Source: Parvibaculum sedimenti
GTDB lineage: Bacteria > Pseudomonadota > Alphaproteobacteria > Parvibaculales > Parvibaculaceae
Assembly: GCF_009184905.1 (NCBI RefSeq)
Contig: NZ_WESC01000003.1
Span: 186,001 to 250,000, forward strand
DNA length: 64,000 nucleotides
Direction of reading: 5' to 3'
Numbering within the stretch: position 1 is the first letter of the stretch; the number at the start of each line of letters is the position of its first letter. The notes under the pieces were generated by a model. That model had not been told where the DNA came from, searched no databases, and worked only from the letters and a program-made list of their open reading frames with translations. The translations under genes and the position numbers were made by a program. Positions 25,241 through 45,898 of the stretch are shown in pieces.

Positions 25241-26157
25241 AGATTTTGCCCAACGGACAGCGCGACTTCGTGGGCTATGGCCGCAACAGGCCAGATGCCC
25301 GCTGGCCAGGCGGGGCGCGCATGGCGCTCGTCATCGTGCTCAATGTTGAGGAGGGGGCCGAGCCCTCCCTGCCCGATGGCGACGCCGCAACCGAAATCGC
25401 GCTGACCGATGGGATTTTCGGCGAGGTGCCCGCTGGCACACGCGACTTCGTGGCCGAAACGCTCTTCGAATATGGTTCCCGCGTCGGCTTCTGGCGGCTC
25501 CACGACCTCTTCGTCGAGCGCGGTGTGCCGCTGACCATGAACGTCTGTACGCAAGCCCTATTGCGCAATCCGGAAATCGCAAGCGCAATCCGTGAAGGAA
25601 AGTTCGACCTCTGCTGCCATGGCGACCGTTTCCTGCGCCAGTTCAACATGAGCGAAGACGCGGAACGCAACGCCATCGCCGCCGCCGTAAAAGGCCTCCA
25701 ACAAACGCTTGGCCGCGCGCCGCTCGGCTGGCAGAGCCGCTACTCGCCGAGCGAGCGAACACGCGCGCTTCTCGTCGAGCATGGCGGATTTCTCTACGAC
25801 GCGGACTCCTATGCCGACGATCTTCCCTACTGGGTTGATGTCGCAGGCAAGCTCCACCTCATCGTGCCGCACACATTCACGAATAACGACAACAGGCTCG
25901 CCACCGCAAAGCTCGCGACGGCATCGGAGTTCTATGAGCACCTCGCCAGCGCCTTCCGCGTCCTCCACGCCGAAAGCGCCCGCAGCCCGCGCCTGATGAC
26001 GGTGAGCCTTCATTCCCGTATCTCCGGCCAGCCCGCGCGCCTCGAAGGCATCAGCCGCTTTCTCGATCTTGTCGCGCAGCATGATGATGTCTGGATCGCC
26101 GGACGCTCCGACCTCGCGCGGCACTGGATCGCAGAGCATCCTCCGGTGACATCATGA
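25237..26157 (+). CDS. Polysaccharide-deacetylase-fold hydrolase, PuuE allantoinase-like
   Basis: A 306-residue NodB-fold protein whose N-terminus (R-D-F-V-G-Y-G-R-N then W-P-G-G-A-R) and N-V-E-E-G-A-E segment follow the cofactor-independent allantoinase PuuE rather than chitin or peptidoglycan deacetylases. PuuE opens the allantoin ring without metal. An H-G-D-R segment stands where the family has its conserved HG. It overlaps neighbours on both sides by 4 bases. It may open a hydantoin- or pyrimidine-like ring in this pathway. A second, different deacetylase lies six genes later, so true allantoinase activity is not assured. Confidence 0.78.
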   Translation: MKILPNGQRDFVGYGRNRPDARWPGGARMALVIVLNVEEGAEPSLPDGDAATEIALTDGIFGEVPAGTRDFVAETLFEYGSRVGFWRLHDLFVERGVPLTMNVCTQALLRNPEIASAIREGKFDLCCHGDRFLRQFNMSEDAERNAIAAAVKGLQQTLGRAPLGWQSRYSPSERTRALLVEHGGFLYDADSYADDLPYWVDVAGKLHLIVPHTFTNNDNRLATAKLATASEFYEHLASAFRVLHAESARSPRLMTVSLHSRISGQPARLEGISRFLDLVAQHDDVWIAGRSDLARHWIAEHPPVTS

Positions 26158-27662
26158 GCGCGGCGCAACTCCTCATCCGCGGCGGTCTGGTTGCCGACCC
26201 GGCATCGGCCCTTGTGGAGCCTCGCGATCTTCTGGTCGAAGGCGCTCGCATCGTTGCCGTCGCCGCGCCGGGAAGCATTGCGGCGCCGGGCGCGAAAATT
26301 CATGACGCCTCGAACCGCTTGATCCTGCCCGCCTTCGTCAATGCGCATACGCACGGACATTCCAATCTCGTCAAAGGCGTGGCCGATCGCTGGACGCTCG
26401 AAGCCTCGCTGACCAATGGCCCCTGGCTCGCAGGCGCGCGCGACACGGAGACGATCTATCTCTCCGCCCTGCTCGGCGCTCTCGACATGCTGTCCAAGGG
26501 CTGCACCTCCTGCTTCGATCTCGTTTATGAATTTCCGCTGCCGACGAAAGCGGGCTTCGCCGCCGTCGCACGCGCCTATGCCGACGCAGGCATGAAGGCG
26601 GTGCTCGCGCCGATGGTCGCTGACAAGACGCTCTTCACCGCCATCCCTGGCCTGCTCGATTCCCTGCCGGAAGATCTCCGCAAGACCGTCAGCCAGTTCG
26701 ATCTCGGTAGCGCAGATGCCACGATTGCAGCCATTGAGGACATAGCTGAGGGTCGCGACGAGTTGCCGGAAGGGATCGAACTCGCCATCGCGCCGACGAT
26801 CCCGCATCACTGCTCGGAAGATTTTCTCGCGCGCTGCATCGATCTTGCCGAACGGCATGACCTGCCGATTCACATGCATATTGCGGAATCCCGGCTTCAA
26901 GCAACCACGGCGCGGAAACTCTGGGGTGTCTCGCCCGTGCGCTATCTGGCTGACCGCGGCATCCTGCGCCCCGGCTTCGTTGCCGCTCACGGCGTATGGC
27001 TCGACGGAAGCGACCTCGACCTCCTTGCCAAGCATCAATGCTCCGTCGCGCATATCCCCGCGAGTAACCTCCGCCTCGGCTCCGGCATGGCGCATGTGCG
27101 CGCCATGCTCGACCGAGGCATCAATGTCGGCCTCGCGACCGATGGTGCAAACTCTTCCGATGCGCTCAGCATGCTTCAGGCAATGCGGCTTGCTTCCTAT
27201 GCATCGCGTGGATTTTCCGGCCCCCGCGAAAACTGGCTCAATGCAACAGAGACGTTGAGACTTGCGACGCAAGGCAGCGCGGGCATCACCGGCTTTGCAA
27301 ACACGGGCCGAATGGAACTCGGCGCGGCCGCCGATCTTGTTTTCTTCGATCTCGATCACCTCGATTTCATCCCACTCACCGATCCTGTCAACCAGATCGT
27401 GACAGCAGCAGACACTGCATCGATCAGCGACGTCATGGCGAATGGCCGCATGGTCTTTTCCGGTGGCCGCTTCACCGCCATCGATACATCCGGCCTACGC
27501 GAGCGTGTACGCGAAGCCGTCCTCAAGCTCTCCGCGAAGCTCGCCGATGCGCGGCCACTGGCAGCAAGGCTGGAGCCGCATGTCGTCGCTTTCGCCGAGA
27601 AGGCGTCCGAAGAACCCCTCGGTGTCGAGCGTTTTGTAAACCCGCGTGAGAAAAGCCAATGA
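26154..27662 (+). CDS. TRZ/ATZ-family amidohydrolase (deaminase-like)
   Basis: A 502-residue amidohydrolase-superfamily enzyme with a mononuclear metal site: H65-T-H67, H242 (in H-M-H-I-A-E245), H279 and D330, with E245 as the general base. The pattern is that of guanine, S-adenosylhomocysteine or triazine deaminases. The C-terminal 70 residues extend beyond the usual end. It overlaps the upstream and downstream genes by 4 bases. A CobW-type GTPase in the same operon could supply its metal, which is inference. Confidence 0.86.
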   Translation: MSAAQLLIRGGLVADPASALVEPRDLLVEGARIVAVAAPGSIAAPGAKIHDASNRLILPAFVNAHTHGHSNLVKGVADRWTLEASLTNGPWLAGARDTETIYLSALLGALDMLSKGCTSCFDLVYEFPLPTKAGFAAVARAYADAGMKAVLAPMVADKTLFTAIPGLLDSLPEDLRKTVSQFDLGSADATIAAIEDIAEGRDELPEGIELAIAPTIPHHCSEDFLARCIDLAERHDLPIHMHIAESRLQATTARKLWGVSPVRYLADRGILRPGFVAAHGVWLDGSDLDLLAKHQCSVAHIPASNLRLGSGMAHVRAMLDRGINVGLATDGANSSDALSMLQAMRLASYASRGFSGPRENWLNATETLRLATQGSAGITGFANTGRMELGAAADLVFFDLDHLDFIPLTDPVNQIVTAADTASISDVMANGRMVFSGGRFTAIDTSGLRERVREAVLKLSAKLADARPLAARLEPHVVAFAEKASEEPLGVERFVNPREKSQ

Positions 27663-28171
27663 CTGTCATGTCCACCACAATCGGTGTTCAGGATTTCCGC
27701 CGGGCCTGTTCTCTCTTCGCGACCGGCGTTGCCGTGGTCACGGCCCGCCTCGGTGAGGCGCAAGTCGGCATGACGATCAACTCCTTCGCGTCCGTCTCCC
27801 TCGAACCGCCGCTCGTTCTCTGGAGCCTGCGGGAGACATCGCGATCTCGTCCTGTTTTTGAAGAAGCGGGCCATTTCGCCATCAACATTCTTTCCGCCGA
27901 ACAAATGCCTCTTGCACAGCATTTCGCCAAGGGCGCCGAAGATGTCTTCGATGGTCACGAACTCGCGCCGTCGACGCTTGGCCTTCCCCTCCTCACCGAT
28001 GCGCTCGCCCATCTCGAATGCCGCACGCGCCACATCTATGACGCAGGCGATCACCGCATCTTCGTCGGCGAAGTCATCGACCTCACGTCGCGCGAGGGCT
28101 CGCCCCTCGTCTTCTATCAGGGCCGCTTTTCACCCGGCCTCCCCGACCTCAATGTTTCAGGCGTCGCCTAA
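27659..28171 (+). CDS. Flavin reductase (HpaC-like), partner of the HpaB-family monooxygenase
   Basis: A 170-residue flavin reductase-like protein with the split-barrel fold. The segments F-R-R-A-C-S-L-F-A-T-G-V-A-V-V-T, G-M-T-I-N-S-F-A-S-V-S-L-E-P-P and H-F-A-I-N-I-L-S are typical of NAD(P)H:FMN/FAD reductases in two-component monooxygenases. It would reduce free FAD for the HpaB-like oxygenase encoded four genes upstream. It overlaps the gene before by 4 bases and the next by 1 (TAATG). Confidence 0.9.
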   Translation: MTVMSTTIGVQDFRRACSLFATGVAVVTARLGEAQVGMTINSFASVSLEPPLVLWSLRETSRSRPVFEEAGHFAINILSAEQMPLAQHFAKGAEDVFDGHELAPSTLGLPLLTDALAHLECRTRHIYDAGDHRIFVGEVIDLTSREGSPLVFYQGRFSPGLPDLNVSGVA

Positions 28172-28896
28172 TGAGCAAAACCATCCGCATCGGCCACATC
28201 ACGCCCTCTTCCAACACAGCCCTCGAACCGCTCACCTATGCGATGAACGAGCCGCTGAAGCATCGCATGACGCATCACTTTTCGCGCATGACGGTGACGC
28301 ATCTGGCTCTCAGCGGGTCCTCGGAGGCGCAATTCCAGCTGGAGCCAATGCTTGCCGCCGCGCGCCTTCTCGCCGACGCGCCGCTCAATGCGATCCTCTG
28401 GAACGGCTCCTCGGCAAGCTGGCGCGGCCTCGAGAACGACGTCGCGCTTTGCGAAGCGATCACCCGCGAAACAGGCATCGCCGCTTCGACCACGACCATT
28501 GCCTTCTGCAAAACCTTTCGTGAGAACAGCTGGCGCCGCATCGCGCTCGCTGTTCCCTACACGTCGGATATCACGGGGCAGATCGGCGTCGAATATGCGC
28601 GACAGGGCTTCGAGGTTGTCGGCGCGGCGAGCCTCGGCGCCCGAGAGAATATCGAGATCGGTGCGACCGACCCCGAACCGATCAGGAGACTTCTGCGCGC
28701 GGCCGCGCAAAGCAAGCCCGATTGCATCGCCGTCGTCTGCACGAATTTCAATGCGACCGAACTCGTTGAAGAGATGGAAACCGAACTCGGCATACCCATT
28801 GTCGACTCGATCGCCATCACTTTTCGCGAAGCCTGCCTGATGACAGGCGTCGACCTCGCCATCCCCGGCTGGGGCCAAATTCTCGCCGGAAACTGA
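28171..28896 (+). CDS. Maleate isomerase / Asp-Glu racemase superfamily protein
   Basis: A 241-residue protein of the Asp/Glu/hydantoin racemase superfamily closest to maleate cis-trans isomerases and arylmalonate decarboxylases, shown by the P12-S-S-N15-T16 start and the two-half domain layout. The C-terminal cysteine is present (V-V-C190-T-N-F), but the N-terminal half has W77-N78-G-S where isomerases carry their first cysteine. One-cysteine members are decarboxylases or isomerases with altered mechanism. In the operon it would act on a C4 or malonate-like acid released by the hydrolases. Start and stop are tightly fused to neighbours. Confidence 0.8.
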   Translation: MSKTIRIGHITPSSNTALEPLTYAMNEPLKHRMTHHFSRMTVTHLALSGSSEAQFQLEPMLAAARLLADAPLNAILWNGSSASWRGLENDVALCEAITRETGIAASTTTIAFCKTFRENSWRRIALAVPYTSDITGQIGVEYARQGFEVVGAASLGARENIEIGATDPEPIRRLLRAAAQSKPDCIAVVCTNFNATELVEEMETELGIPIVDSIAITFREACLMTGVDLAIPGWGQILAGN

Positions 28897-28899
28897 CGC

Positions 28900-29916
28900 A
28901 TGGAAGAGGCCGCCTCATTCGCCGGTAAGGTCGCCATACTCACCACGGGCGGCACAATCGCCTCGACCTACGATCAGTCGAGCGGCTCCGTACATGCGGC
29001 GCTGGACGCAAACGTCCTTCTCGCGGGACTACCCACCGCCTGCCTTCCGCCTGTCGAAGGCCGCAGCATCCTCACGCGCAACAGCTACGCGCTCTCCTTC
29101 GACGATGCGCTCACCATCGTGGAGGCGATAGAGGAGACGCGGTCTCGAGACGACATAGCGGGTGTCGTCGTCACGCATGGAACGGACACGCTGGAGGAAA
29201 CCGCCTTTCTGGCCGGCCTTCTGCTTGAGCCGGGCAAGCCAGTCGTCTTCACCGGCGCACAAGCCTCAGCAGACGAACCGGACCGTGACGGGCCGCGCAA
29301 CCTCGCTGATGCGATCCGCGTTGCGGGTACAGGCGCGGCATCCGGTCTCGGCGTTCTGGTCGTCTTCGACGGCGATATACTCACCGCCCGCGACGCCACC
29401 AAGAGGCACAGCTCGCGTCGGCACGCCTTCACCGCCGCCAGCGGACCGATAGGCACCGTGGATCGCAGTGTCGTTCGTATCACGCAGCGGCCCACTCCCT
29501 TCGCACGTTTTTGCGAGGCAAGACTCGCCGGACCCGTCGATCTCGTCACGCTGACACTCGGCGGGGATGACAGGATTCTGAAGCTCTGCGCCGAGGCGGG
29601 CGCGCGCGGCATCGTGCTGGCGGCAACGGGGCGCGGCAACGCAACGCCGAACATCGTCGCCCTCATCTCACAGCTCAGTGCGCGCGGCGTCCCCGTTCTC
29701 GTCACCTCACGCTCGCCGGAAGGCCGCGTCGAGCCGATCTACGGACAGGGAGGCGGCGCGGATCTTGAAAGGGCAGGCGCTATTTTTGCAGGTGATCTCA
29801 ACGGTCCCAAGGCGCGGCTTCTGCTCGCGCTGATCCTCGGCCAATCCACAATTGGAAACATCGCCGCTCTCGTTCACTCCATCGCCAATTCATGCATCGA
29901 GGAGAAAGTCTGGTGA
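28900..29916 (+). CDS. L-asparaginase/glutaminase family amidohydrolase
   Basis: A 338-residue asparaginase-fold enzyme. The first threonine motif is T15-T16-G-G-T19-I-A and the second is T-H93-G-T95-D96-T97. An A-T-K-R-H-S-S-R segment provides the usual lysine region. There is no signal peptide, so it is cytoplasmic. It starts 3 bases after the isomerase gene. In this operon it would deamidate an asparagine-like or half-amide intermediate and release ammonia; housekeeping asparaginase would not need such coupling. Confidence 0.87.
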
Positions 29917-30809
29917 CGAAGGAAATTCTGGTTGCTTACGGCATCGACGTCGATGCGGTCGCGGGTTGGCTTGGCTCCTATGGCGGCGAGGACAGTCCCT
30001 GCGACATCTCGCGCGGCGTCTTTGCAGGCGAGGTCGGCATTCCTCGCCTGCTGCGCATGTTCGACCGCTTCGGCATCGAGACGACATGGTTCGCCCCCGG
30101 CCATTCCATCGAGACGTTTCCCGACGAGATGAAAGCGGTCGCCAATGCTGGTCATGAAATCGGCATGCATGGCTATTCGCATGAAAATCCGCTGATGATG
30201 ACGCCAGATCAGGAAGCCGCCGTCATCGACAAATCCATCGAGCTCATCACGAAGTTGCAGGGCCGCCCGCCCGTCGGTTATGTCGCGCCGTGGTGGGAAT
30301 TCAGCGCGGGCACGATCGAACTGCTGCTCGAACGCGGCATCCTCTACGACCACAGTCTGATGCATAACGACTTCTTTCCCTATTACGCGCGCAAGGGCGA
30401 AAGCTGGTCGAAGATCGACTACGGCAAGCCGGCCGAGACGTGGATGAAGCCGATGAACCGGGGCACGGAAACAGACCTCGTCGAAATTCCTGCTTCCTGG
30501 TACATCGACGATCTGCCGCCCATGATGTTCATGAAGGCCTCGCCCAACAGCCACGGTTTCGTCAATCCGCGCGATATCGAGGAGCTTTGGCGCGACCAGT
30601 TCGATTGGGTCTATCGCGAATATGATTATGCGGCCTTCACCATCACGATCCACCCGGACGTCTCGGGCCGCCCGCAAGTGCTCTCCATGCATGAGCGCTT
30701 CTTCAGCCATATGGCAAGCCATCCCGGCGTGTGTTTCGTGACCTTCGAAGAAATCGCCCGGGATTTCCTTGTGCGTTTTCCGCGCGGCACACAAGGTCCG
30801 AGGCCCTGA
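29913..30809 (+). CDS. Polysaccharide-deacetylase-family hydrolase (HpPgdA-like subgroup)
   Basis: A NodB-fold protein of about 298 residues beginning at GTG 29913, which overlaps the asparaginase stop as GTGA and has GAGGAG nine bases upstream. An in-frame ATG at 29892 is an alternative. The [13 protein letters not shown] start and the [13 protein letters not shown] motif (metal histidines) mark the cytoplasmic subgroup that includes H. pylori PgdA-like proteins and many predicted amide or imide hydrolases. Having no signal peptide, it cannot act on cell-wall glycan and probably hydrolyses a small C-N bond. Confidence 0.85.
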
Positions 30810-30814: not shown

Positions 30815-31117
30815 ATGTGCGGCTTCTGCGGATCCTTCAGCGAACACAGGCACTGGAGTGCCGGCCCGCTCACGGCGGCGCGACAGGGCGCGGTGCGTAT
30901 ACGCATCGCACACATGGCGGGTGAACTTGCCGCACCCGCCGGCGTCCGCCTGACGGCATGGCGCGACCGCTTTCAATTGACGGGCCCGACGGGCAAGCGC
31001 GAACTGGCGACTGATCTGGCCAGCATCTGGCGCGCCGTCGATCGGCTCGGTCGCGCCATGCCGGACCCGCTCGACGACGCATTTTTCGACGGCCTCGAAG
31101 CACAGGCGAAAGAATGA
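30815..31117 (+). CDS. Small conserved-looking protein with N-terminal CxxC
   Basis: A 100-residue protein starting at ATG 30815 (M-C2-G-F-C5-G). It overlaps the CobW start by 4 bases and starts 5 bases after the deacetylase stop. The two cysteines form a C-x-x-C that could bind zinc or a cluster. The rest is R-rich and A-rich with no membrane helix. I recognise no family. Position next to CobW suggests it is a metal-dependent accessory or client, which is inference only. Confidence 0.65.
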   Translation: MCGFCGSFSEHRHWSAGPLTAARQGAVRIRIAHMAGELAAPAGVRLTAWRDRFQLTGPTGKRELATDLASIWRAVDRLGRAMPDPLDDAFFDGLEAQAKE

Positions 31118-32142
31118 CAGGCGACGCCCCTGTCATCGTCGATGTTCTGACGGGCTTTCTCGGTGCAGGAAAGACATCGCTGGTGCGGCGACTTGCCGAA
31201 GCCGGCGCTCTTTCCGGCGTGGCCGTGCTGGTCAACGAATATGCCGCCCCTCCCGTCGACCAAAGCCTGATGGGGCTGTCCGGCCTCAAGGCCGGAACCT
31301 TCGCCGATGGCTGTCTCTGCTGCGCGACCGATGGCGATCTCCGCGCGTCCCTGCTGCAACTTCTGGAAAATCGCGCAGGCGGCAAGGTTCGCCCTTTCAC
31401 GCGCATTCTGATCGAGACGTCCGGCATCGCCGATCCCGCGTCGCTCCTCGCCACGCTCGTTTCTGATCCGATGTTGCGCCCGCGCCTTAGGCTCGGCCGT
31501 GTCGTCACGCTGGTCGATCTCTGCCATGCGCCGACGACTCTGGCCGAACAGCAGGAGGCCGTCGCGCAGATCGTCGCCGCCGACATCGTCCTCTTCACCA
31601 AAGCGGACATGGCGGACGAAGGCGCGGTCGAATTGGCCTGCGCCGTGGTAGGGGCAATCAACCCGATCGCAGCGTTGCGTGAATGCAGCCCGCACGACAA
31701 CACAGACCCCTTCGACCTGCACGCGCTACAACCACGCCATAGGAAAGCGCCGGTTGCGTCAGCGGTTCACACACACCATCACCACATTGCCTCAACTGTG
31801 CTTCGCTGGCCTTCGCCGGTCGACTGGGCCGTCTTCGCAAGCTGGCTCTCGTTGCTCTTGCACCGGCACGGCCCCAATATTCTCAGGATGAAAGGCATCA
31901 TGACGATCGCGGGCGAAGAACAACATGGTCCCGTGGTCATCCAGTCCGTGCGCCACATCGTCCACATGCCCGAACATGTGGCCCAACCAGCGGCGAACGG
32001 CGGAGCCGAAATCGTCGTCATCGCGCGGGAGATCGATCCGGCCCTTATCCGCCGCTCGTTTGAAACCTTCCTCGCACATGCTGAACGCAAAAACCGCTCC
32101 ACAGAGGATCATTTGCCCCAAATCAATGCGGTGATTGCCTAG
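31114..32142 (+). CDS. CobW/COG0523-family G3E GTPase, putative metallochaperone
   Basis: A 342-residue GTPase: Walker A G14-F-L-G-A-G-K-T21, the family's C67-L-C-C70 metal motif, the T-K-A-D guanine-specificity loop (162-165), a His-rich linker H219-T-H-H-H-H224, and a CobW C-terminal domain. Members deliver zinc, cobalt or iron to client enzymes, including nitrile hydratase activators. It is the last gene of the ten-gene operon and is followed by a hairpin. The likely clients are the metal-dependent amidohydrolase or deacetylases upstream. Confidence 0.9.
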   Translation: MTGDAPVIVDVLTGFLGAGKTSLVRRLAEAGALSGVAVLVNEYAAPPVDQSLMGLSGLKAGTFADGCLCCATDGDLRASLLQLLENRAGGKVRPFTRILIETSGIADPASLLATLVSDPMLRPRLRLGRVVTLVDLCHAPTTLAEQQEAVAQIVAADIVLFTKADMADEGAVELACAVVGAINPIAALRECSPHDNTDPFDLHALQPRHRKAPVASAVHTHHHHIASTVLRWPSPVDWAVFASWLSLLLHRHGPNILRMKGIMTIAGEEQHGPVVIQSVRHIVHMPEHVAQPAANGGAEIVVIAREIDPALIRRSFETFLAHAERKNRSTEDHLPQINAVIA

Positions 32143-32515: not shown

Positions 32516-33535
32516 ATGGTTACCATCATCGACCGCGACCAGCGCTTCCTCGAATCCTCGCAGAAAATCGAAAGCCCCTTCCAGCTCGATCCAACGCTCT
32601 GCCTCTATAGCCCGCAGGACAATGTCGACTCGCTCGCGCATCCGCGCATTGCTGCATGGATCGATTTTGTGCGGAAGGAATATGAGCCCAAGTTTCCCAA
32701 GGCAAAGCGTCGTGTGCTGCTTTTCATGCCTTGCACCAAGACCAAGCCTTACCCCTTCTCCTCGGAGCACAAGGCTATCAACCAGCGGCTGATCGACTCC
32801 GGATTCCGCCCCACATCGCGCCAATATCTACCGCAGGAATTACAGGCTCGGCTCGAACCTTCCTTCTCGCAGGAAGTGCTCAATCTTTCGCCGCTGATTG
32901 ACGACGAAGGCTTGCTCATTCACCGCATGGTGATTTCCGAACCCATGGGCGTCGTGCCTTACGAACACATCGTCGAGTATCGCGGCCAGCCCTCGCCCGC
33001 GACCGCCTATGACGATCCGGGCCTCTTTGAAAAGCGCGGCAATGCCGTCTCACCCTGGCGCACAGATTCGACCGCGACTGCCGTCTCCGCGAACCGCTGG
33101 AAATGGGGCGACGAGGAACGCCGCGCCTATGTGGTGATGCACAACGCCATGGCGGAGGCTGTCGCCACCGTCGTCGCGCGCATCGGACACAATTACGACG
33201 ACATCGTTTCCTGGGTTGCGCCCGGCCTTACCCACCGCAGCTTCGTCATCGGCCGCAGCGAACGCTCGGCGAACAATGTCGCGGCATCCCGCAAGGTTGG
33301 AACGACGCGCCTCGAACTCATCGGCGCGAATGACCATCTGCCTGAGGGCCAGAAGATCACCTGCCTGCCGACGCCCGAGCAATGCAAGGAAGCCGTGGAG
33401 CGGCTCGCCGACCGGCTCGGCACCGACCTCACCCATGCCTATGGCGTCTATGCGCGCGGCGGCGCCAATGCGACGCCGCTTGCGCTGCCCGAACTCCTCG
33501 ACGATCTGATGGCGCGCCTGCGTCCCACGGCGTAA
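32516..33535 (+). CDS. ArcS-like (DUF5591) protein, bacterial homologue of archaeosine synthase core
   Basis: A 339-residue protein carrying the full archaeosine-synthase signature PC-x3-KPY-x2-S-x2-H: P72-C73, K77-P78-Y79, S82 and H85. After it come M-V-I-S-E-P-M-G-V-V-P-Y-E, P-A-T-A-Y-D-D-P and a W-x-x-D-E element, in the order seen in DUF5591. In archaea this domain, fused to TGT-like and PUA parts, adds lysine to the nitrile of preQ0 in tRNA. Here TGT and PUA parts are absent and the gene opens a catabolic cluster, so a free small molecule is a more likely substrate. Function is unassigned; the domain call is fairly sure. Confidence 0.78.
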   Translation: MVTIIDRDQRFLESSQKIESPFQLDPTLCLYSPQDNVDSLAHPRIAAWIDFVRKEYEPKFPKAKRRVLLFMPCTKTKPYPFSSEHKAINQRLIDSGFRPTSRQYLPQELQARLEPSFSQEVLNLSPLIDDEGLLIHRMVISEPMGVVPYEHIVEYRGQPSPATAYDDPGLFEKRGNAVSPWRTDSTATAVSANRWKWGDEERRAYVVMHNAMAEAVATVVARIGHNYDDIVSWVAPGLTHRSFVIGRSERSANNVAASRKVGTTRLELIGANDHLPEGQKITCLPTPEQCKEAVERLADRLGTDLTHAYGVYARGGANATPLALPELLDDLMARLRPTA

Positions 33536-33553: not shown

Positions 33554-34531
33554 ATGGCATCAAAGAAGCTGAAGATCGGCGTCAGCGACAGCGACAGGAC
33601 AAGGCCGCTGGCGAATGGCGAAGTCCCGCTCGATGGCATCGATGCGGAAATCTCGCTGATGGGCGTGCAGGCGCTCTTCAACAGGCAGTTGAAAGACCAT
33701 ACTTTCGACGCCTGCGAGTTCCCCATCGCAACCTATCTGCGCACGCTGGAGACGCCGGAACGCCCCTATGTGGCCGTACCGCTATTCCCCTCACGGCATT
33801 TCCGCCTCTCCTGCGTCTTCATCAACAAGACGAAAGGCATCAGGACGCCTGCCGATCTCGCGGGCAAGCGTATCGGCATGATGGTTTTCGACATGGCGGC
33901 GGCCGTCTGGCTGCGCGGAATTTTCGAGGAGCATTTCGGACTCCCGCGCACATCACCCATCTATGTGAGCGGCGGCCTCGATGCCCCGCGCTCGGGCGAC
34001 GAGCATCCGCAATTTTACCCGGAGCAGTTCAAGATCGAGCATCGTACCGATGCTAGCCTCGCGGCGCTTCTCGAAAGCGGTGAGATCGACGCGCTCTATA
34101 CGGCGCGCGCCCCGAGCACCTGGCCGTCGGCGAATGTCGGCCGTCTCTTCGAAAATCCGATGGAGGCGGAACTCGGCTATTTCGAGAAGACGAGCATCTT
34201 CCCGCCCATGCACATCCTCGCGATCAAGCGCCCGCTGGTCGAGGCCGCCCCGACTCTGCCGCGCAAACTCTTCAACGCCTTCGCAGCCGCGCAGGAAGTT
34301 GCCCGCTCGAAGCTTTTCGATTCCGCGGCCCTTTCCACCATGCTGCCCTGGCAACTCGAAGCGCTGCTCCAGACCGAAGAGAAGCTTGGCAAGGATTACT
34401 GGCCGGTCGGCTTTGCAAAGAACCGGGCGATGCTCGACGTCTTCATCCGCTACATGCTGGAAGACGGGCTCATCACCACTCCTTTCACGCCGGAAAGCAT
34501 CTTCGACGGCGCGGATATTCTTTCAACCTGA
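33554..34531 (+). CDS. Periplasmic-binding-fold protein, 4,5-dihydroxyphthalate decarboxylase-like
   Basis: A 325-residue protein with the type II periplasmic-binding fold but no signal peptide, resembling 4,5-dihydroxyphthalate decarboxylase (Pht5). The R-P-L-A-N-G-E-V-x-L-D-G-I-D start and the C-E-F-P-I-A-T-Y-L segment are the hallmarks. This supports a cytoplasmic decarboxylase rather than an ABC binding protein. It lies 18 bases after the ArcS-like gene and 24 bases before the AraC regulator. It may remove a ring carboxyl group in the pathway of this cluster. The substrate is inferred from fold only. Confidence 0.78.
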   Translation: MASKKLKIGVSDSDRTRPLANGEVPLDGIDAEISLMGVQALFNRQLKDHTFDACEFPIATYLRTLETPERPYVAVPLFPSRHFRLSCVFINKTKGIRTPADLAGKRIGMMVFDMAAAVWLRGIFEEHFGLPRTSPIYVSGGLDAPRSGDEHPQFYPEQFKIEHRTDASLAALLESGEIDALYTARAPSTWPSANVGRLFENPMEAELGYFEKTSIFPPMHILAIKRPLVEAAPTLPRKLFNAFAAAQEVARSKLFDSAALSTMLPWQLEALLQTEEKLGKDYWPVGFAKNRAMLDVFIRYMLEDGLITTPFTPESIFDGADILST

Positions 34532-34555: not shown

Positions 34556-35521
34556 ATGGCCCAGGCGACAGGTAGCTGGCAGAACCTCTGCACCGAGGCC
34601 GTTCCTCCACGCGATCGTCTCGACTACTGGCACGCGGCGACCAACCGGCTCTTTCCGCCCACGCGCCTCAGCCGGTCGAGCCATGAAGGCTTTTATGGCC
34701 GCGTCTCATGGCTCAAATTCGGCGAGGTGACGCTGGCCAACATCGTCTCGACGAGTCTCGACGTAACGAGGAGCGAACGCGACATCACCCGCGACGACGA
34801 CCGCTGGTATGAAATCAACGTCCAGATAGACGGGGCAAGTGCCTTTACCCAGGACGGGCGCGAGGTCGCTTCCGGCCCACGCTCCGTCATTCTCTATGAC
34901 AGCCGCCGTCCCTATCAGATGCGCTTCGACGGACCATATCGGCAACTCTCGCTGAAGGTGCCGCGCGAGGCGCTGCGCGACCGCGTGCCGAATATCGACG
35001 CGCTGATCTCCCGGCATATCCCCACTGACGGCATTCCCGGCCGCTTCTTCTACGACTTTGCCGCCGCGCTCTGCGACGCGCCGGAAGGTATTCCGGGCTT
35101 TATCGCCTCGCGCCTCGAACAGCACACGCTCGATCTTCTTGCGACGGCTCTGCTGGGCGCAAATATCGAACCTGCCTCCACGGTCAACCGCATATCGCAG
35201 CTCGACCGGATCAAAGCCTACATTCTCGACAGGCTGGACCAGCCCGACCTCACGCCCCGCGCCATCGCAGAGGCTCACCATATTTCACTCCGCCACCTCT
35301 ATGACCTCTTCGAGGCCGAGGAGCAGCAGGTCGCGCGCTGGATTCAGACACACCGGCTCGACCGGATCAGACGAGACCTCGCCGATCCGCTGAAGCGCGG
35401 CTGGCCGATCAACACCATCGCGCTGAGCTGCGGCTTCAAGGACTTCTCGCATTTCAGCCGGAGCTTCCGGCGGCAATTTGGTGTCTCGCCCCGCGACTAC
35501 CGCAACGGGCTCTCTCACTGA
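34556..35521 (+). CDS. AraC-family transcriptional regulator
   Basis: A 321-residue regulator with an N-terminal AraC-binding-like domain (about residues 30-190, the C-T-E-A-V-P-P-R-D-R-L-D-Y-W start is typical) and a C-terminal double helix-turn-helix (about 220-318, ending C-G-F-K-D-F-S-H-F-S-R-S-F-R-R-Q-F-G-V-S-P). It sits 24 bases after the decarboxylase-like gene and upstream of the aminotransferase gene on the same strand, so it probably activates this catabolic unit. The inducer is unknown. Confidence 0.9.
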   Translation: MAQATGSWQNLCTEAVPPRDRLDYWHAATNRLFPPTRLSRSSHEGFYGRVSWLKFGEVTLANIVSTSLDVTRSERDITRDDDRWYEINVQIDGASAFTQDGREVASGPRSVILYDSRRPYQMRFDGPYRQLSLKVPREALRDRVPNIDALISRHIPTDGIPGRFFYDFAAALCDAPEGIPGFIASRLEQHTLDLLATALLGANIEPASTVNRISQLDRIKAYILDRLDQPDLTPRAIAEAHHISLRHLYDLFEAEEQQVARWIQTHRLDRIRRDLADPLKRGWPINTIALSCGFKDFSHFSRSFRRQFGVSPRDYRNGLSH

Positions 35522-35661
35522 ATGACGCACGGTCGGTCATGTTTTCGTGCCTCGCCAGACCAGGTGGCAAGCTGGCATCCCGTTACGAATGAAGGCTCAA
35601 TGGCCGCCAGAGCGGCAGTCCCGCCGCGCTGTATGCGAGTGACATCTTGACCTACAAAAGC

Positions 35662-37023
35662 ATGGAAACACAGGCCTGGCAGGTGCTCGACCGGGCGCAT
35701 TACCTCCATCCCTTCACCGATCATGCAGGACTCCGCCAAACCGGCTCGCGCGTGGCAACGCGGGGTGAAGGCGTTTATGTCTGGGATACGGACGGCAAGC
35801 GCATCATCGACGGCTTGTCGGGTCTTGGCTGTGTCAATATCGGCTATGGCCGCAAGGAGCTTGTCAACGCGGCCGCCGAGCAGATGCTCGAACTCTCCTT
35901 TTGCCAGTCCTTTTTCAAGACCACGCACCGCGCTGCCGTCACGCTTGCCGAGAAGCTTGCGAGCATGCTGCCGGAGGGACTGAACCATGTCTTCTTCCAG
36001 TCGTCAGGCTCGGAAGCGAACGAGACCGCCATGCGCACCATCCGCCGCTACTGGGATCTCGCGGGCCAGCCGCAACGCCGCGTCGTCATCGCCCGCGAAC
36101 TCGCCTATCACGGCAGCACGCATATGGCGGCAAGTCTTTCCGGCATTCCGCCAATGTACACAGCGGGCGGCGATATTCCGCTTCCTGGCATCGTCCACAT
36201 CAAGACGCCCTATCAGTACAGGCACGGACCTGAGATGAATGCCGACGAATTCGGCATCGTCGCTGCGGGCTGGCTTGAAGAAAAGATTCTGGAGGTCGGC
36301 GCCGACAAGGTTGCCGCTTTCTTCGCCGAGCCTGCGCAAAGCGCAGGCGGCGCGATCTGTCCGCCCATGACCTATTGGCCGGAGATCCAGCGCATTTGCA
36401 AGAAATACGATGTGCTTCTCGTCGCCGATGAAGTCGTATGCGGCTTCGGCCGCACCGGCCAATGGTTCGGCGCCGATCATTACGGCATCACGCCGGACCT
36501 CATGCAGCTCGGCAAGGGCATCACTTCGGGCTATCTGCCGCTTTCCGCCTGCGCCATGTCGGACCGCGTGGCCGACATGCTGATCGAGAAAGGCGGTGAA
36601 TGGGCGCATGGCTTCACCTATTCGGGTCATCCCGCCTGCTGCGCTGTTGCGCTTGAGAACATCCGCATCCTCGAAGAGGAACGCATCGTCGAAACGGCAG
36701 CCGCCGAGCTCGTCCCCTATTTCCGCTCGAAGCTCGAAACATTCGTCGACCACCCGCTGATCGGTGATGTGCGCTCGGTCGGCCTCATGGGCGGCCTTGA
36801 GATCGTGCAGAACAAGAAGACGCGCGAATCCTTCCCCTATGAGGCGAAGATCGGCGAGGCCTGCAGCACCGAAGCCCTAAAGCGCGGCCTCGCCTTCCGC
36901 GCCAATGGCGACACGATGAGCCTCATGCCGCCGCTCGTCATCACCAGGCCTGAAATCGACACGATGTTCGGCATCGCGCGCGAAGCGCTCGATGCCACCG
37001 CAGTTAAATATGACGTGATGTAA
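35662..37023 (+). CDS. Class III (omega-amino acid) aminotransferase
   Basis: A 453-residue PLP enzyme of the omega-amino acid:pyruvate transaminase group. K285 (Q-L-G-K-G-I-T-S-G) forms the aldimine, D256 (A-D-E-V-V-C-G-F-G-R-T-G) holds the pyridine nitrogen, and S-S-G-S-E-A-N binds phosphate. An in-frame TTG at 35647 would add five residues; ATG 35662 is preferred without strong ribosome-site evidence. It would convert an omega-amine such as beta-alanine or beta-aminoisobutyrate to a semialdehyde, for the dehydrogenase encoded 2 bases downstream. This may finish the reductive pyrimidine route encoded further on. Confidence 0.9.
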   Translation: METQAWQVLDRAHYLHPFTDHAGLRQTGSRVATRGEGVYVWDTDGKRIIDGLSGLGCVNIGYGRKELVNAAAEQMLELSFCQSFFKTTHRAAVTLAEKLASMLPEGLNHVFFQSSGSEANETAMRTIRRYWDLAGQPQRRVVIARELAYHGSTHMAASLSGIPPMYTAGGDIPLPGIVHIKTPYQYRHGPEMNADEFGIVAAGWLEEKILEVGADKVAAFFAEPAQSAGGAICPPMTYWPEIQRICKKYDVLLVADEVVCGFGRTGQWFGADHYGITPDLMQLGKGITSGYLPLSACAMSDRVADMLIEKGGEWAHGFTYSGHPACCAVALENIRILEEERIVETAAAELVPYFRSKLETFVDHPLIGDVRSVGLMGGLEIVQNKKTRESFPYEAKIGEACSTEALKRGLAFRANGDTMSLMPPLVITRPEIDTMFGIAREALDATAVKYDVM

Positions 37024-37025: not shown

Positions 37026-38456
37026 ATGCCAGATCCCCGCCCTTTTTATATCGACGGAAGATGGGTTGAACCGGCGAGCCCCAATCCTGCCGATGTGATC
37101 AATCCAGCGACGGAAACTCCCGTCGCGCAGATCAGCCACGGCAGCGTTGCCGATGTCGACCGCGCGGTGGCGGCGGCCCGTGCCGCCTTCCCGGCCTTTG
37201 CCGCAACGAGCAGAGAGGAGCGCCTCGCTCTTTTCGGGCGCATCGTCGAATGCTTCAAGGCGCGGCGCGAGGATCTCGCCCGTGCCGTGACGGCGGAAAT
37301 GGGCGCACCCTCGAAACTCGCATGGGACATTCAGACCGGCTCCAGCATCATCTATTTTGAAGATGCCGCTGCCGTCCTGCGCGATTTCGAATTCGAGACG
37401 CTGAGAGGCACGACGCTGATCGCGCATGAGGCGATCGGCGTCTGCGGCCTCATCACGCCATGGAACTGGCCGCTCAACCAGATCGTAACGAAGCTCGCGC
37501 CCGCACTTGCGGCCGGCTGCACCGTAGTGCTGAAGCCGAGCGAACTTTCGCCGCTGAGCGCGCTTATCCTCGCCGAAGTCCTGCACGAAGCCGGTGTGCC
37601 GAAGGGCGTCTTCAACCTTGTCAACGGCACGGGCGCGGAGGTGGGCGCGGCAATTGCCGCGCATCCGGACATCGACATGGTGTCCTTCACAGGCTCGACC
37701 CGCGCAGGCATTCTCGTTGCCGAAGCTGCCGCGAAAACAGTGAAGCGCGTCCACCAGGAACTCGGCGGCAAGTCTGCCAATATCATCTTGCCGGATGCGG
37801 ACCTCGACCTGGCAGTCGCCGACGGCGTCAATCGCTGCTTCATCAATTCAGGCCAGTCCTGCATAGCGCCAACGCGCATGTTCGTTCACCGCTCGCAACT
37901 CGACGAAATCATCGACCGCGCAAAAGCCATCGCCGCATCGGTCGCTGTCGGCGATCCAACCTTGCCGGAAGCCACCATGGGCCCGGTCACCGGCGCGGCG
38001 CAGTTCTCCAAGGTCGGCTCGATGATCGACGCTGGACTTGCAGAGGGCGCGACGCTCGTGGTGGGCGGCCCCGGCAGACCACAGGACCTCAATCGCGGAT
38101 ACTTCGTCCGCCCGACCATCTTCGCCAACGTCACGCCCGACATGACCATCGCGCGGCAGGAGATATTCGGGCCCGTCCTTTCGATCCTCACCTATGACGA
38201 TGAAGCCGAAGCGATACGCCTCGCCAACGACACGGTCTACGGGCTCGCAGGCTACGTCCATTCAAAAGACGAAGCCCGCGCCCGACACGTCGCAGCCCAC
38301 ATCCGCGCCGGCCGCATCTTCATCAACAACCCGCCCTTCGATTTCAACGCGCCCTTCGGCGGCTACAAGCAATCCGGCAACGGGCGCGAACTCGGCACCT
38401 TCGGCATGACCGAATTTCTCGAAGTGAAAGCCGTTCTCGGCTATTCAAAAGCGTAA
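37026..38456 (+). CDS. NAD(P)-dependent aldehyde dehydrogenase
   Basis: A 476-residue ALDH with T-P-W-N147-W-P, the general base E245 (H-Q-E-L-G-G-K-S) and the catalytic C279 (N-S-G-Q-S-C-I). It lies 2 bases after the aminotransferase gene and so probably oxidises the semialdehyde formed by that enzyme. No CoA-dependent MMSDH signature is obvious, suggesting a free acid product. Which semialdehyde, for example malonate semialdehyde or a longer chain, is not determined. Confidence 0.92.
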   Translation: MPDPRPFYIDGRWVEPASPNPADVINPATETPVAQISHGSVADVDRAVAAARAAFPAFAATSREERLALFGRIVECFKARREDLARAVTAEMGAPSKLAWDIQTGSSIIYFEDAAAVLRDFEFETLRGTTLIAHEAIGVCGLITPWNWPLNQIVTKLAPALAAGCTVVLKPSELSPLSALILAEVLHEAGVPKGVFNLVNGTGAEVGAAIAAHPDIDMVSFTGSTRAGILVAEAAAKTVKRVHQELGGKSANIILPDADLDLAVADGVNRCFINSGQSCIAPTRMFVHRSQLDEIIDRAKAIAASVAVGDPTLPEATMGPVTGAAQFSKVGSMIDAGLAEGATLVVGGPGRPQDLNRGYFVRPTIFANVTPDMTIARQEIFGPVLSILTYDDEAEAIRLANDTVYGLAGYVHSKDEARARHVAAHIRAGRIFINNPPFDFNAPFGGYKQSGNGRELGTFGMTEFLEVKAVLGYSKA

Positions 38457-38465: not shown

Positions 38466-39806
38466 ATGAGAACCTGGTTGCGTGATCCCATTGCCGTCCT
38501 GGCCGAAGGCGCCGAGCGCGGAATCGTTATCGAGGATGGACGTATCGCCGAACTCGTCGGTCGCGATGGCCCCTCCATACCCTGCGATGAGGTCTTCGAT
38601 GCGGGACGGCATGTCGTTCTCCCCGGCCTCATCAATACGCATCACCATTTCTTCCAGACGCTCACCCGCGCGCATCCGCAGGCGATCAACAAGGAACTCT
38701 TTCCCTGGCTGAAATCGCTCTATCCGATCTGGGGCGATCACCTGAACCGCGACAGCTTCCGCCTCGCAACGCGCGTGGCGCTGACGGAAATGCTGATGTC
38801 CGGCTGCACGACAGCGTCAGATCACCTCTTCGTCTTTCCGGGCGATATACCCGACGCCGTGGACATCGAAGCCGAGGAGGCATCGAAGCTCGGCATGCGC
38901 ATGACGCTGACGCGCGGTGCCATCAATGTCGGAACGAAGAATGGCGGGATCGCCGATGAAAGGCTGATGCAGGACTATGACACGGTGCTCGCCGACTGCG
39001 AGCGGGTGCTCCACAAATATCACGACCGCTCAGAAGGCTCCTATTTGCAGGTCGCGCTCGCGCCATGTGCCCCTTTCAACGTCACCAAACAATTGATGAT
39101 CGACTCGGCGGCTCTCGCCGACAAACACGACTGCCGCCTCCATACCCATCTCGGCGAAACGCATGACGAGGATGAATTCTGCATCTCCCAGTTCGGCCTG
39201 CGCCCACTCGACTATCTCGAAGAAGTCGGTTGGCTCAATTCCCGCGTCTGGCTCGCCCATGGCATCCACTTCAACGATGAAGAAGTATGCCGCCTCGGCA
39301 AGCACAAGGTCGGCGTCTGCCACTGTCCGACATCGAACATGGTTCTCGCCTCAGGCACCTGCCGCACGAAAGATCTGGAAGCCGCAGGCGCCATTGTCGG
39401 CCTCGGCGTTGACGGCTCGTCGTCCAATGACAGTTCCAACCTCATGGAGGCCGTGCGCCACGCCATGATGCTGGGCCGTCTCGCCTATGGCGCGGCGGCG
39501 GTCACGCATCTCGACGCTCTTCGCTGGGCCACCGAAGGGTCTGCCGCTTGTCTCGGCCGCACTGATATCGGCAAGATCGAAATTGGCCGTCAGGCTGACC
39601 TCGCCCTCTTCACACTCGACGAATTGCGCTTCTCAGGTGCCGGCGATCCCATCGCGGCCCTCGTTCTTTGCGGTGCGCATCACGCCGATCGCGTGATGAT
39701 CGGTGGCAAGTGGCGCGTGACGGAGGGCCAGCCCGTCGGGCTCGATCTCGCACAACTCCGCCACGAGCATGGCGAAGCGGCCAAGGCATTTTTGAAAACG
39801 CTCTGA
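38466..39806 (+). CDS. 8-oxoguanine deaminase-like amidohydrolase
   Basis: A 446-residue amidohydrolase of the TRZ/ATZ branch. Metal ligands are H59 and H61 (N-T-H-H-H-F), H228 (H-T-H-L-G-E231), H265 and D316, with E231 as acid/base. The segments I-N-K-E-L-F-P-W-L-K-S-L-Y-P-I-W and H-T-H-L-G-E-T match my recollection of Pseudomonas 8-oxoguanine deaminase (PA0142), which makes urate from 8-oxoguanine. A hydroxydechloroatrazine-type aminohydrolase is the alternative. It starts 9 bases after the dehydrogenase gene. With the downstream AllA gene it suggests purine catabolism. Confidence 0.82.
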   Translation: MRTWLRDPIAVLAEGAERGIVIEDGRIAELVGRDGPSIPCDEVFDAGRHVVLPGLINTHHHFFQTLTRAHPQAINKELFPWLKSLYPIWGDHLNRDSFRLATRVALTEMLMSGCTTASDHLFVFPGDIPDAVDIEAEEASKLGMRMTLTRGAINVGTKNGGIADERLMQDYDTVLADCERVLHKYHDRSEGSYLQVALAPCAPFNVTKQLMIDSAALADKHDCRLHTHLGETHDEDEFCISQFGLRPLDYLEEVGWLNSRVWLAHGIHFNDEEVCRLGKHKVGVCHCPTSNMVLASGTCRTKDLEAAGAIVGLGVDGSSSNDSSNLMEAVRHAMMLGRLAYGAAAVTHLDALRWATEGSAACLGRTDIGKIEIGRQADLALFTLDELRFSGAGDPIAALVLCGAHHADRVMIGGKWRVTEGQPVGLDLAQLRHEHGEAAKAFLKTL

Positions 39807-39814
39807 TGTGCGCT

Positions 39815-39831
39815 GTTGCCTATTTGGCAAC
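39815..39831. promoter_or_regulatory. Palindrome in the gap before the FMO-like gene
   Basis: GTTGCC-TATTT-GGCAAC is a perfect inverted repeat and contains a T-N11-A core, the form of LysR-type sites. It lies 97 bases upstream of the flavoprotein start. The nearest LysR is at 42435-43367. A simple RNA hairpin is the alternative. Confidence 0.45.
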
Positions 39832-39927
39832 GGAATGTTCGAAACACGCTTCTTTTATAGAACGCCAGAAGTAGAAGAGACTAAGGCATCGAAGGCTCCT
39901 TCCGCGCGAAAGCATCTGAGGTCATCC

Positions 39928-41376
39928 ATGTCTCCCATCGACGCCCCCCTCGACGAAACGGCGCTCGCCGAGCTTGCGCAGGAGGAATTGGCGCTCCTCT
40001 CCTATCCCGACCGGCGATGGACGAAACCTCACTTCGATGCCAAGGGGCGGCAGCTTTATGACGTGGTCATTGTCGGAGGTGGACAGTCAGGCCTTCTCAT
40101 CGCGCATTCGCTGATGCGGCAGGGCGTCGACAATGTCCTGGTTCTGGACCGCAGCCCCGAGGGCTATGAAGGCGTCTGGGAGAATTTCGCCCGCATGTCG
40201 CATCTGCGCACGCCCAAGGCGCTGTGTGGCATGGAGATCGGGCAACCGAACCTGTCCCTCCAGCGCTGGTACATGGCGCGATATGGGCGCGAGGCATGGG
40301 AAGCGCTCGACCGTGTCCCACGCCTCGCCTGGATGGAATATCTTCGCTGGTATCGAAAAACGCTGAACCTCCCCGTCGTCAACAATACGGAAGTCGAGGC
40401 GGTCGGGCCCGAAGGCGACCACATCGTCGTGACCACACGGCGGAATGGCAAAATCGAAACTCATCCGGGACGGCTCGTCGTGCTGGCGACCGGCTTTGAC
40501 GGCGCGGGCCGCTGGAGTGTACCGGAGATCATCAGCAAGAACCTCCCCAGGTCGCTCTATTCCCATTCCAATGTGGAAATCGACTTTGCGCGGCTCGCTG
40601 GCAAGCGCGTCGGCATTCTCGGCCATGCCGCATCCGCCTTCGACAATGCGGCAGCGGCCCTCAAGGCGGGCGCGACCTCAGCCGATGTCTGCTTTCGCCG
40701 CCCGGCGCTGCCGACCGTCAATCCGCACCGGCATGTCGAAACGGCAGGCTGTCTCGCAAACTTCCCGGAGCTTTCCGATGCAACGCGATGGGCGATCGCG
40801 CGCTATTTCCGCGAAGTCGACCAACCGCCAGCACATTCAGGGTTCTTCGCGGCGACCGCACTTCCCGGCTTCCGCATGCATGCGTCGAGTCCGTGGCTTG
40901 ACGTCCGGCAGGAAGGCGACGCTATCAGGGTGACGACGCCGCGCGGCGAACATGTCTTCGACTATCTCATCGCCGCGACGGGCTACATGGTCGATTATTC
41001 GGCTCGTCCGGAACTCGCGACCCTCTCCCCCTTCGTCGCTCGCTGGAAAGATCGCTACACGCCGCCCGAAGGCGCGGAGCATCCCATGCTCGGTGAGTTT
41101 CCCTATCTCGGTCTTTCCTATGAATATCAGCCACGTGAAGCTGGAACCGCACCCTGGATCGAGCGCATACACGCCTTTAATTTCTCCGGCGCCGTCAGCA
41201 TGGGACCGCATTCGACCTCGATCAGCGGGCATAAATATGCGCTGCCGAGGCTGGTACGCGGCCTTGTGCGCCGCCTCTTCCTCGAACAGGAAGAACACGT
41301 GATCCCCGACCTCCTCGCCTATAAGGATGTCGATCTGGTCATACCGCCAAATCTCCAGAGCATGGCAGCGGAATAG
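39928..41376 (+). CDS. FMO-like FAD/NAD(P)H-dependent oxidoreductase
   Basis: A 482-residue flavoprotein. It has an FAD-binding V-G50-G-G-Q-S-G55 motif and a second dinucleotide site V-G-I-L-G-H-A-A-S-A-F-D (about 228-239), the layout of flavin-containing and Baeyer-Villiger-like monooxygenases. The classical F-x-G-x-x-x-H-x-x-x-W/Y motif is not seen, so its precise class is open. The ATG at 39928 has GAGG seven bases upstream; an earlier in-frame start at 39808 adds an unlikely tail. Placed between a deaminase that could make urate and a ureidoglycolate lyase, it could oxidise a purine-derived ring; this is inference. Confidence 0.84.
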   Translation: MSPIDAPLDETALAELAQEELALLSYPDRRWTKPHFDAKGRQLYDVVIVGGGQSGLLIAHSLMRQGVDNVLVLDRSPEGYEGVWENFARMSHLRTPKALCGMEIGQPNLSLQRWYMARYGREAWEALDRVPRLAWMEYLRWYRKTLNLPVVNNTEVEAVGPEGDHIVVTTRRNGKIETHPGRLVVLATGFDGAGRWSVPEIISKNLPRSLYSHSNVEIDFARLAGKRVGILGHAASAFDNAAAALKAGATSADVCFRRPALPTVNPHRHVETAGCLANFPELSDATRWAIARYFREVDQPPAHSGFFAATALPGFRMHASSPWLDVRQEGDAIRVTTPRGEHVFDYLIAATGYMVDYSARPELATLSPFVARWKDRYTPPEGAEHPMLGEFPYLGLSYEYQPREAGTAPWIERIHAFNFSGAVSMGPHSTSISGHKYALPRLVRGLVRRLFLEQEEHVIPDLLAYKDVDLVIPPNLQSMAAE

Positions 41377-43382: not shown

Positions 43383-44882
<1,500 letters not shown>

Positions 44883-44886
44883 TTAT

Positions 44887-44902
44887 CTGACCATTCGGTC
44901 AA
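44887..44902. promoter_or_regulatory. RutR-like operator upstream of dihydropyrimidinase
   Basis: CTGACC-ATTC-GGTCAA has the same arms and spacing as the RutR consensus TTGACCANNTGGTCAA. It lies 50 bases upstream of the dihydropyrimidinase start and downstream of the rutR-like gene. It would let uracil-responsive repression control the minus-strand operon. Confidence 0.75.
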
Positions 44903-45013
44903 GAAGCATGAGACGTGCCATCGTCAAAGGCGCAGCAACCGGCGGATTCTTGCAAGGAGATGTTTTCAGCCTGCCGCTTTATTCGGCGCGTTGGTCGTCT
45001 GGAATGCAGATCG

Positions 45014-45745: not shown

Positions 45746-45868
45746 CTTATCTCCCGGTTGAGCAGATTTGGTGACGACGCTTTGAGCAATTGCATAGAGG
45801 GCGGGCAAACTTTCTGCTTCACATGAGTAGCGCGGGGCCGGCGGCAACGGCAAGCCCCGGAAAATATT

Positions 45869-45898
45869 TTGACCGAAAGGTCAGGTTTTTTCTACTCT
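45869..45898 (+). promoter_or_regulatory. RutR-like operator overlapping the preT promoter
   Basis: TTGACC-GAAA-GGTCAG (45869-45884) is a RutR-type palindrome. Its left arm doubles as a -35 box, with TACTCT at 45893-45898 as -10 after an 18-base spacer. Binding would block polymerase, as expected for repression of preT-preA. It lies in the divergent region between rutR and preT and could also regulate rutR. Confidence 0.75.

Follow-up and report, generated by a model that had tools for sequence, protein, structure and literature searches.

What does the core domain of archaeosine synthase (ArcS) do in a bacterium, within a gene cluster that looks catabolic? In archaea this domain serves tRNA modification and deals with 7-cyano-7-deazaguanine, an uncommon base. 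The question is raised by an ORF in the 64,000-nucleotide stretch of the Parvibaculum sedimenti genome that was analysed here as a whole (the window). A sequence-only reading had described the product as a bacterial protein with the ArcS motif in a catabolic cluster and had suggested that it may have been taken over for use on a free nitrile or a deazapurine.

The ArcS core domain and its relatives

The ORF product has a single Pfam match, to DUF5591 (PF17884; 32.6 bits, cut-off 26), over residues 47–91 only. The same part was weakly matched by the two NCBIfam ArcS models (E = 1.9e-6 and 3.9e-6), whose full-length cut-offs were missed (26.8 bits vs 440, and 25.5 bits vs 600). TGT and PUA domains, claimed to be missing, indeed gave no Pfam match in the protein at E <= 1, and a sequence search of the PDB with the protein alone as query returned no match at E <= 10. 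The own genome holds one DUF5591 match.

Residues 72–85 (PCTKTKPYPFSSEH) fit PC-x3-KPY-x2-S-x2-H exactly, just as had been read from the letters. Pro72, Cys73, Lys77, Pro78, Tyr79, Ser82, and His85 are invariant in all 30 aligned bacterial sequences, the window protein included, among which the lowest identity is 43%, and a chance occurrence of the motif in the ORF is therefore ruled out. This alignment consists of the window protein, a Rhizobium plasmid sequence, L004, and 27 of the 28 loci from a contig scan described below; L034, whose match was split into two overlapping pieces, was omitted from alignments A2 and A3 and retained among the 30 loci used for neighbourhood counts. Several rows of A2 and A3 begin at the match or a few codons earlier, with start codons unchecked. 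DUF5591 matches all 30 sequences at E <= 0.01, a criterion that differs from the curated cut-off. When three viral DUF5591-type proteins and two haloarchaeal proteins matching TGT and ArcS models (from a Haladaptatus plasmid) were taken into the alignment, 12 positions were invariant: Tyr31, which lies in a gappy part, Pro72, Cys73, Lys77, Pro78, Tyr79, Ser82, His85, Leu92, Ser141, Pro148, and Tyr165. The later segments, with Ser141, Pro148, and Tyr165, had been claimed to follow the order of DUF5591, and they do.

Comparison of the bacterial family with a viral ArcS-core profile (four proteins, two of them near-identical) by hhalign gave a probability of 98.2% and an E-value of 5.3e-14 over residues 37–249. 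The structure of the window protein was predicted with a pLDDT of 91.9, and the best match among solved structures is PDB 2q07, the Archaeoglobus fulgidus protein AF0587, which was deposited without an assigned function and which we take to be a part of ArcS. VIA-align superimposed 138 residues at 20% identity with an rmsd of 2.9 and a Z of 11.2, the next row having a Z of 5.5. AF0587 was also ranked first by Foldseek, but with an E-value of 0.033, and was found by the bacterial sequence profile at E = 0.015 only. Its motif segment, PCTARKPYLTSRTH, has the same PC-x3-KPY-x2-S-x2-H pattern as the window protein. A different fold, given by an HMM search or a structure, had been set in advance as the finding that would count against the ArcS assignment; the HMM gave DUF5591 and the top structure is AF0587, weakly by Foldseek and clearly by VIA-align. 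Homology to the ArcS core thus spans the domain beyond the motif, as indicated by the hhalign range and the Z of AF0587.

Many of the rows ranked after AF0587 in this comparison are uracil-DNA glycosylases or TDG, at a Z of about 4–5.3 and amid unrelated folds. These rows, and the free base that the deaminase and ring-opening steps of the cluster would need, are consistent with a nucleosidase-like enzyme of uracil-DNA-glycosylase-like fold that frees a deazapurine base from ribose. However, a Z below 8 may reflect a mere common arrangement, cutinases and tubulin scoring like the uracil-DNA glycosylases, and a nucleosidase leaves both the invariance of Cys73 and the linkage to a decarboxylase-like gene unexplained. 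We consider such an activity quite unlikely.

The viral relatives were collected by scanning viral contigs with the motif as a DNA pattern, which gave 14 loci, four of them with DUF5591-type ORFs (L040, L042, L043, and L046); the other 10 were rejected as chance or short frames, a judgement made by eye without an HMM. Pfam DUF5591 was run on three of the viral ORFs and scored 73.9 bits for L046 and 54.5 bits for L043, over the cut-off, and 22.9 bits against 26, below it, for L042. The L042 and L043 ORFs (3055-3672 and 3162-3755), both on IMG/VR contigs, each code for a protein of the ArcS-core type that stands alone and is about 200 aa long. Scans of the viral contigs returned only its own contig with the L043 protein as query and no match with the window protein as query, and Foldseek of the window model against the viral models gave nothing at E <= 0.001. 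One of the four proteins is identical to STSV1 ORF19. The gene immediately before ORF19 is annotated as queuine tRNA-ribosyltransferase, and this placement ties the DUF5591 domain to deazaguanine chemistry. The Haladaptatus plasmid (L050) carries its two genes matching TGT and ArcS models at 2522-4486 and 5200-7221; the two differ in strand and are separated by one small gene, and the pair possibly belongs to a DNA-modification system rather than to tRNA modification.

Like archaeal ArcS, the window protein has the core with its motif and the later Ser, Pro, and Tyr residues. Unlike archaeal ArcS, it has no detectable TGT-like or PUA domain, carries extra N- and C-terminal segments as well as insertions, and is encoded in a bacterial catabolic-looking operon rather than acting in a tRNA modification setting. 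The viral ArcS-core proteins (STSV1 ORF19 and its IMG/VR relatives) resemble it in being single-domain DUF5591-type proteins and differ in length (185–206 aa) and in the queuine tRNA-ribosyltransferase-like neighbour of the STSV1 protein. Membership of the window protein in the DUF5591/ArcS core domain is well supported. Because the full-length ArcS models were not reached, we class it, from its sequence, as a variant of the ArcS core that stands alone in a catabolic context, and not as ArcS proper. The original description stands for the ArcS core and for a catabolic-looking cluster, which recurs in other bacteria.

Distribution and gene neighbourhood

The ArcS-like gene was found in 1 of 27 genomes of its own genus and 1 of 40 of its order, the own genome included in each, and in 4 of 385 genomes of its class, counting the own genome and one weak match (G098; 34% over 63 residues, with one internal stop) that was discarded. 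With the Pfam model, DUF5591 was detected in 1 of 397 sampled genomes of the phylum, namely the own genome. A genome-contig scan with a four-sequence alignment gave 28 loci with an ArcS-like gene, 25 of which are alphaproteobacterial (Kaistia, Bosea, Mesorhizobium, Bradyrhizobium, Ciceribacter, Rhizobium, Pseudooceanicola, Maritimibacter, Actibacterium, Rhodovarius, and various MAGs). The other three are Actinomycetota-type MAGs (L028, L032, and L033), for which binning errors are possible. One plasmid, of Rhizobium sp. ACO-34A, carries the gene, and phage records gave no match to it. L003 duplicates L017, with agreeing lengths and positions, and the two were counted once; L003 and L004, of 4 kb each, are outside the 30 loci. 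The gene is rare, and its presence in a single genome of the genus suggests that it sits in an accessory cluster. The GC content of the cluster (62.1%) nearly equals that of the rest of the window (61.4%), so composition is silent on horizontal gain.

The neighbours had been named as a decarboxylase-like protein, an aminotransferase, an aldehyde dehydrogenase, and an 8-oxoguanine-deaminase-like enzyme, which proved correct and can now be stated more precisely (Table 1).

Table 1. Features of the cluster around the ArcS-like gene, with positions in the window
Feature	Position	Strand	Match or remark
HpaB-type flavin-dependent monooxygenase	22556..24037	+	259.9 bits to 9lft
Amidase-signature enzyme	24044..25240	+	Amidase 212 bits
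Polysaccharide-deacetylase-family protein A	25237..26157	+	26.2 bits, cut-off 23.1
Amidohydrolase A, aminohydrolase type	26154..27662	+	
Flavin reductase, candidate HpaB partner	27659..28171	+	148.7 bits
Asp/Glu-racemase-superfamily protein	28171..28896	+	Best Pfam match arylmalonate decarboxylase (Amdase), 64.2 bits
Asparaginase-family protein	28900..29916	+	178 bits
Polysaccharide-deacetylase-family protein B	29892..30809	+	Nearest NCBIfam model allantoinase PuuE, 82 bits, cut-off 424.6
CobW-type GTPase, possible metal chaperone	31114..32142	+	116.6 bits
ArcS-core (DUF5591) stand-alone protein	32516..33535	+	339 aa, ATG start; motif residues 72-85; putative nucleophile C73
4,5-Dihydroxyphthalate-decarboxylase-like protein	33554..34531	+	197 bits to solved 4,5-dihydroxyphthalate decarboxylase 9jp7; Pfam NMT1 18.4 bits, below cut-off 20.5
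AraC-family regulator	34556..35521	+	
Class III aminotransferase, PRK07480 subfamily	35647..37023	+	666 bits, cut-off 510
Aldehyde dehydrogenase	37026..38456	+	Aldedh 541 bits
Amidohydrolase, 8-oxoguanine-deaminase-like	38466..39806	+	NCBIfam 8-oxoguanine deaminase PRK08203, 617.7 bits, cut-off 532
Flavoprotein monooxygenase-like protein (FMO)	39808..41376	+	Pyr_redox_3 / Lys_Orn_oxgnase
Ureidoglycolate-lyase family protein	41389..41910	+	Pfam 43.6 bits, cut-off 23
Cytidine-deaminase-like protein	41927..42376	-	Nearest NCBIfam model TadA, 66 bits, cut-off 150; cluster membership uncertain

To compare relatives, we counted homologues at the 30 loci, 22 of which are well flanked, with 8.9 kb or more to each side of the ArcS-like gene; the counts include the window itself, and related species are counted separately. 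Homologues of the decarboxylase-like protein, HpaB, the amidase, and the FMO were each present in 18 of the 22 well-flanked loci, the 8-oxoguanine-deaminase-like homologue in 13, and those of the aminotransferase and the aldehyde dehydrogenase in nine each. Within 250 bp of the ArcS-like match lie a decarboxylase-like homologue in 20 of the 30 loci and an FMO homologue in 17; the FMO homologues of relatives (39–47% identity) are often directly upstream of the ArcS-like gene, and the HpaB homologues of related clusters are 65–85% identical. An amidohydrolase of the class II HDAC family, encoded between the aminotransferase and the aldehyde dehydrogenase in L009 (14464-15585) and L026 (12529-13650), has homologues in eight of the 22 well-flanked loci and in 9/30 overall, the query's own locus included. 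It is absent from the window, and its sole match in the own genome, at 41% identity, is on another contig.

None of the four core partners occurs in L016, L017, L024, L026, L028, L032, L033, and L034, eight of the 30 loci, some of them on short contigs. In L016, as in L004, the ArcS-like gene adjoins the large subunit of a xanthine-dehydrogenase-like protein, and in L028 it adjoins an asparaginase-like protein and a cyanuric acid amidohydrolase. In L026 the deaminase, the aldehyde dehydrogenase, the HDAC-like gene, and the aminotransferase occur together with genes for ABC transport. DUF1989 and class II aldolase genes are present in L033 and L034, a Rieske oxygenase in L024, and cell-shape genes with a deaminase-type protein in L017; the few proteins scanned in L032 include a GntR regulator. 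The theme shared by the loci is the breakdown of nitrogen compounds, though not at every locus. The conserved set of ring-breaking enzymes beside a lone ArcS core hints at an undescribed consumption of deazapurine-type compounds.

Three further observations concern the surroundings. Beside the cluster, beyond a LysR regulator, positions 43383-53813 of the window hold a reductive pyrimidine catabolism set, with PreA (722 bits), dihydropyrimidinase (587 bits), a PreT-like protein, an M20 peptidase-type protein, an ABC ATPase, and an NMT1-type binding protein. Two long plus-strand ORFs of 653 and 490 aa (17558-19519 and 15600-17072) have no Pfam match at E <= 1e-8 and may not be genes, because long ORFs on the opposite strand overlap both. 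In L033, an Acidimicrobiia MAG, a gene of the DNA N6/N4-methylase family (10031-11119) adjoins the ArcS-like gene in a catabolic-looking operon.

Candidate substrate and reaction

We tentatively favour the reading that a stand-alone ArcS-core enzyme works within an operon that breaks down a 7-deazaguanine-like pyrrolopyrimidine; the enzyme would act on the C7 substituent and feed the decarboxylase and ring degradation. Substrate and reaction are inferred from the evidence set out here. A 2-amino-4-oxo-pyrrolopyrimidine would be bound in the ArcS pocket, and Cys73 would attack the carbon of a C7 nitrile or that of a related imine or amidine. Water would take the place of an amine in resolving the intermediate, so that an amide or a carboxylate forms, and the C7 carboxylate would then be removed by the neighbouring decarboxylase-like enzyme. 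Where present, the aminotransferase and the aldehyde dehydrogenase could convert an aminomethyl side chain, as in preQ1, to the same carboxylate. The 2-amino group would be removed by the 8-oxoguanine-deaminase-like enzyme, the pyrrole ring opened by HpaB with the flavin reductase, and the pyrimidine dismantled by the amidohydrolases and amidases. The order of these later steps (deamination, oxidation of the pyrrole by HpaB, and hydrolysis) is suggested by family names.

Three reported activities underlie the assignment of Cys73 as the probable nucleophile and the idea that water may take the place of the amine. Some ArcS enzymes transfer lysine, while that of M. jannaschii is reported to use ammonium, asparagine, or glutamine (PMC11298593). 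For phage ArcS, whose published context is DNA modification, a hydrolytic activity was suggested by the authors as an explanation of the 7-amido-7-deazaguanine in the DNA of Vibrio phage nt-1 (PMC6884629). In QueF-L, the QueF-like enzyme of archaeosine synthesis, the nitrile of preQ0 reacts with a Cys to a thioimide, an adduct that absorbs at 376 nm (PMC5485725); the chemistry proposed for Cys73 would be the same by analogy, although QueF-L belongs to the T-fold superfamily and has a fold other than that of the ArcS core.

The same amine chemistry allows a second route, in which ammonia or an amine would be joined to the C7 nitrile in an ArcS-like manner and the amidine hydrolysed by later enzymes, the side chain being handled by the aminotransferase, the aldehyde dehydrogenase, and the HDAC-like amidohydrolase of relatives. 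It agrees with the core residues, which are those of ArcS, with the amine donors just described, and with the position of the HDAC-family gene in L009 and L026. To make an amidine ahead of degradation would be roundabout, however, the aminotransferase is missing from 13 of the 22 well-flanked loci, and the HDAC-like gene is absent from the window; we regard this route as unlikely.

The nearest solved relatives of the deaminase are 3hpa (deposited as an amidohydrolase), 7ww2, 2paj (a putative cytosine/guanine deaminase that presumably acts on isoxanthopterin), and triazine hydrolases. The family name leaves the substrate unfixed, because 7ww2 is named both 8-oxoguanine deaminase and hydroxydechloroatrazine ethylaminohydrolase and other relatives are triazine hydrolases. 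These nearest relatives, the general purine/pyrimidine-type character of the neighbours, and the fact that no queuosine-specific gene was identified at the cluster would also fit a domain adapted to a different ring of aminopyrimidine type, fused or substituted (for instance a triazine-like compound, a pterin, or an oxidised guanine), which the operon degrades without a nitrile taking part. Against this, all motif residues of the ArcS core, Cys73 included, are kept throughout the bacterial family, which is more than the re-use of a pocket shape needs, and the deaminase scores 348 bits to 7ww2 and exceeds the cut-off of the 8-oxoguanine deaminase model, as compared with 228.5 bits to 2paj. A nitrile-free ring is somewhat unlikely in our judgement. 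The invariance of catalytic-type residues also speaks against a purely ligand-binding or assembly role within the operon, which we consider highly improbable, even though regulator- or chaperone-like genes are among the neighbours.

The 7-deazaguanine reading agrees with purine/pyrimidine-type neighbours in other contexts, namely the xanthine-dehydrogenase-like gene of L016 and L004 and the cyanuric acid amidohydrolase of L028. Several findings count against it: the loci without core partners, the presence of the aminotransferase and the aldehyde dehydrogenase in a minority of the well-flanked loci, the ambiguous deaminase name, the short Pfam match, and the E-values of AF0587 by sequence and by Foldseek. 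To these is added that T. kodakarensis ArcS does not act on the free preQ0 base, is slow on the nucleoside, and is faster with a 5'-phosphate (PMC11298593). The suggested recruitment to a free nitrile or deazapurine thus fits the domain and the purine/pyrimidine-type neighbours, while the substrate use of this ArcS counts against its simplest form.

A queuosine-specific link at the cluster was also sought and did not emerge, which counts against the 7-deazaguanine reading as well. A preQ1 riboswitch would have linked the cluster directly to deazaguanines, but Rfam searches at gathering thresholds returned no match in the five sources covered (the window, L008, L009, L010, and L012), and the three rows below gathering scores in window positions 21000-43000 include no riboswitch. 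Q_salvage had no match anywhere, the controls likewise being without a match, so this search carries no information. Vut_1 matches occurred in 7 of 14 genomes or records, that of the own genome on contig C9 whereas the window is on C23, and nucleoside hydrolase matches in 9 of 14, the own genome being without one. In the open-licence literature, no described catabolic route for deazaguanines appeared among the matches listed, nor did the term DUF5591 in the archaeosine synthase literature among the matches listed there.

Possible implications for deazaguanine turnover

Queuine and related deazaguanines are widespread. It is possible, though speculative, that the cluster encodes the breakdown of free 7-deazaguanines (queuine, preQ1, preQ0, or breakdown products of archaeosine), in which the ArcS core has been turned into a degradative nitrile or amidine hydrolase ahead of the decarboxylase. 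The conserved gene set, combined with a domain whose known action elsewhere is on the preQ0 nitrile, makes the cluster a concrete and testable candidate for deazaguanine catabolism, and study of so compact a stand-alone form may clarify the mechanism of the ArcS core. If the pathway is real, a domain of tRNA modification would have been turned to catabolism, and the cluster would account for the recycling of nitrogen from hypermodified tRNA bases by bacteria of soils and the sea.
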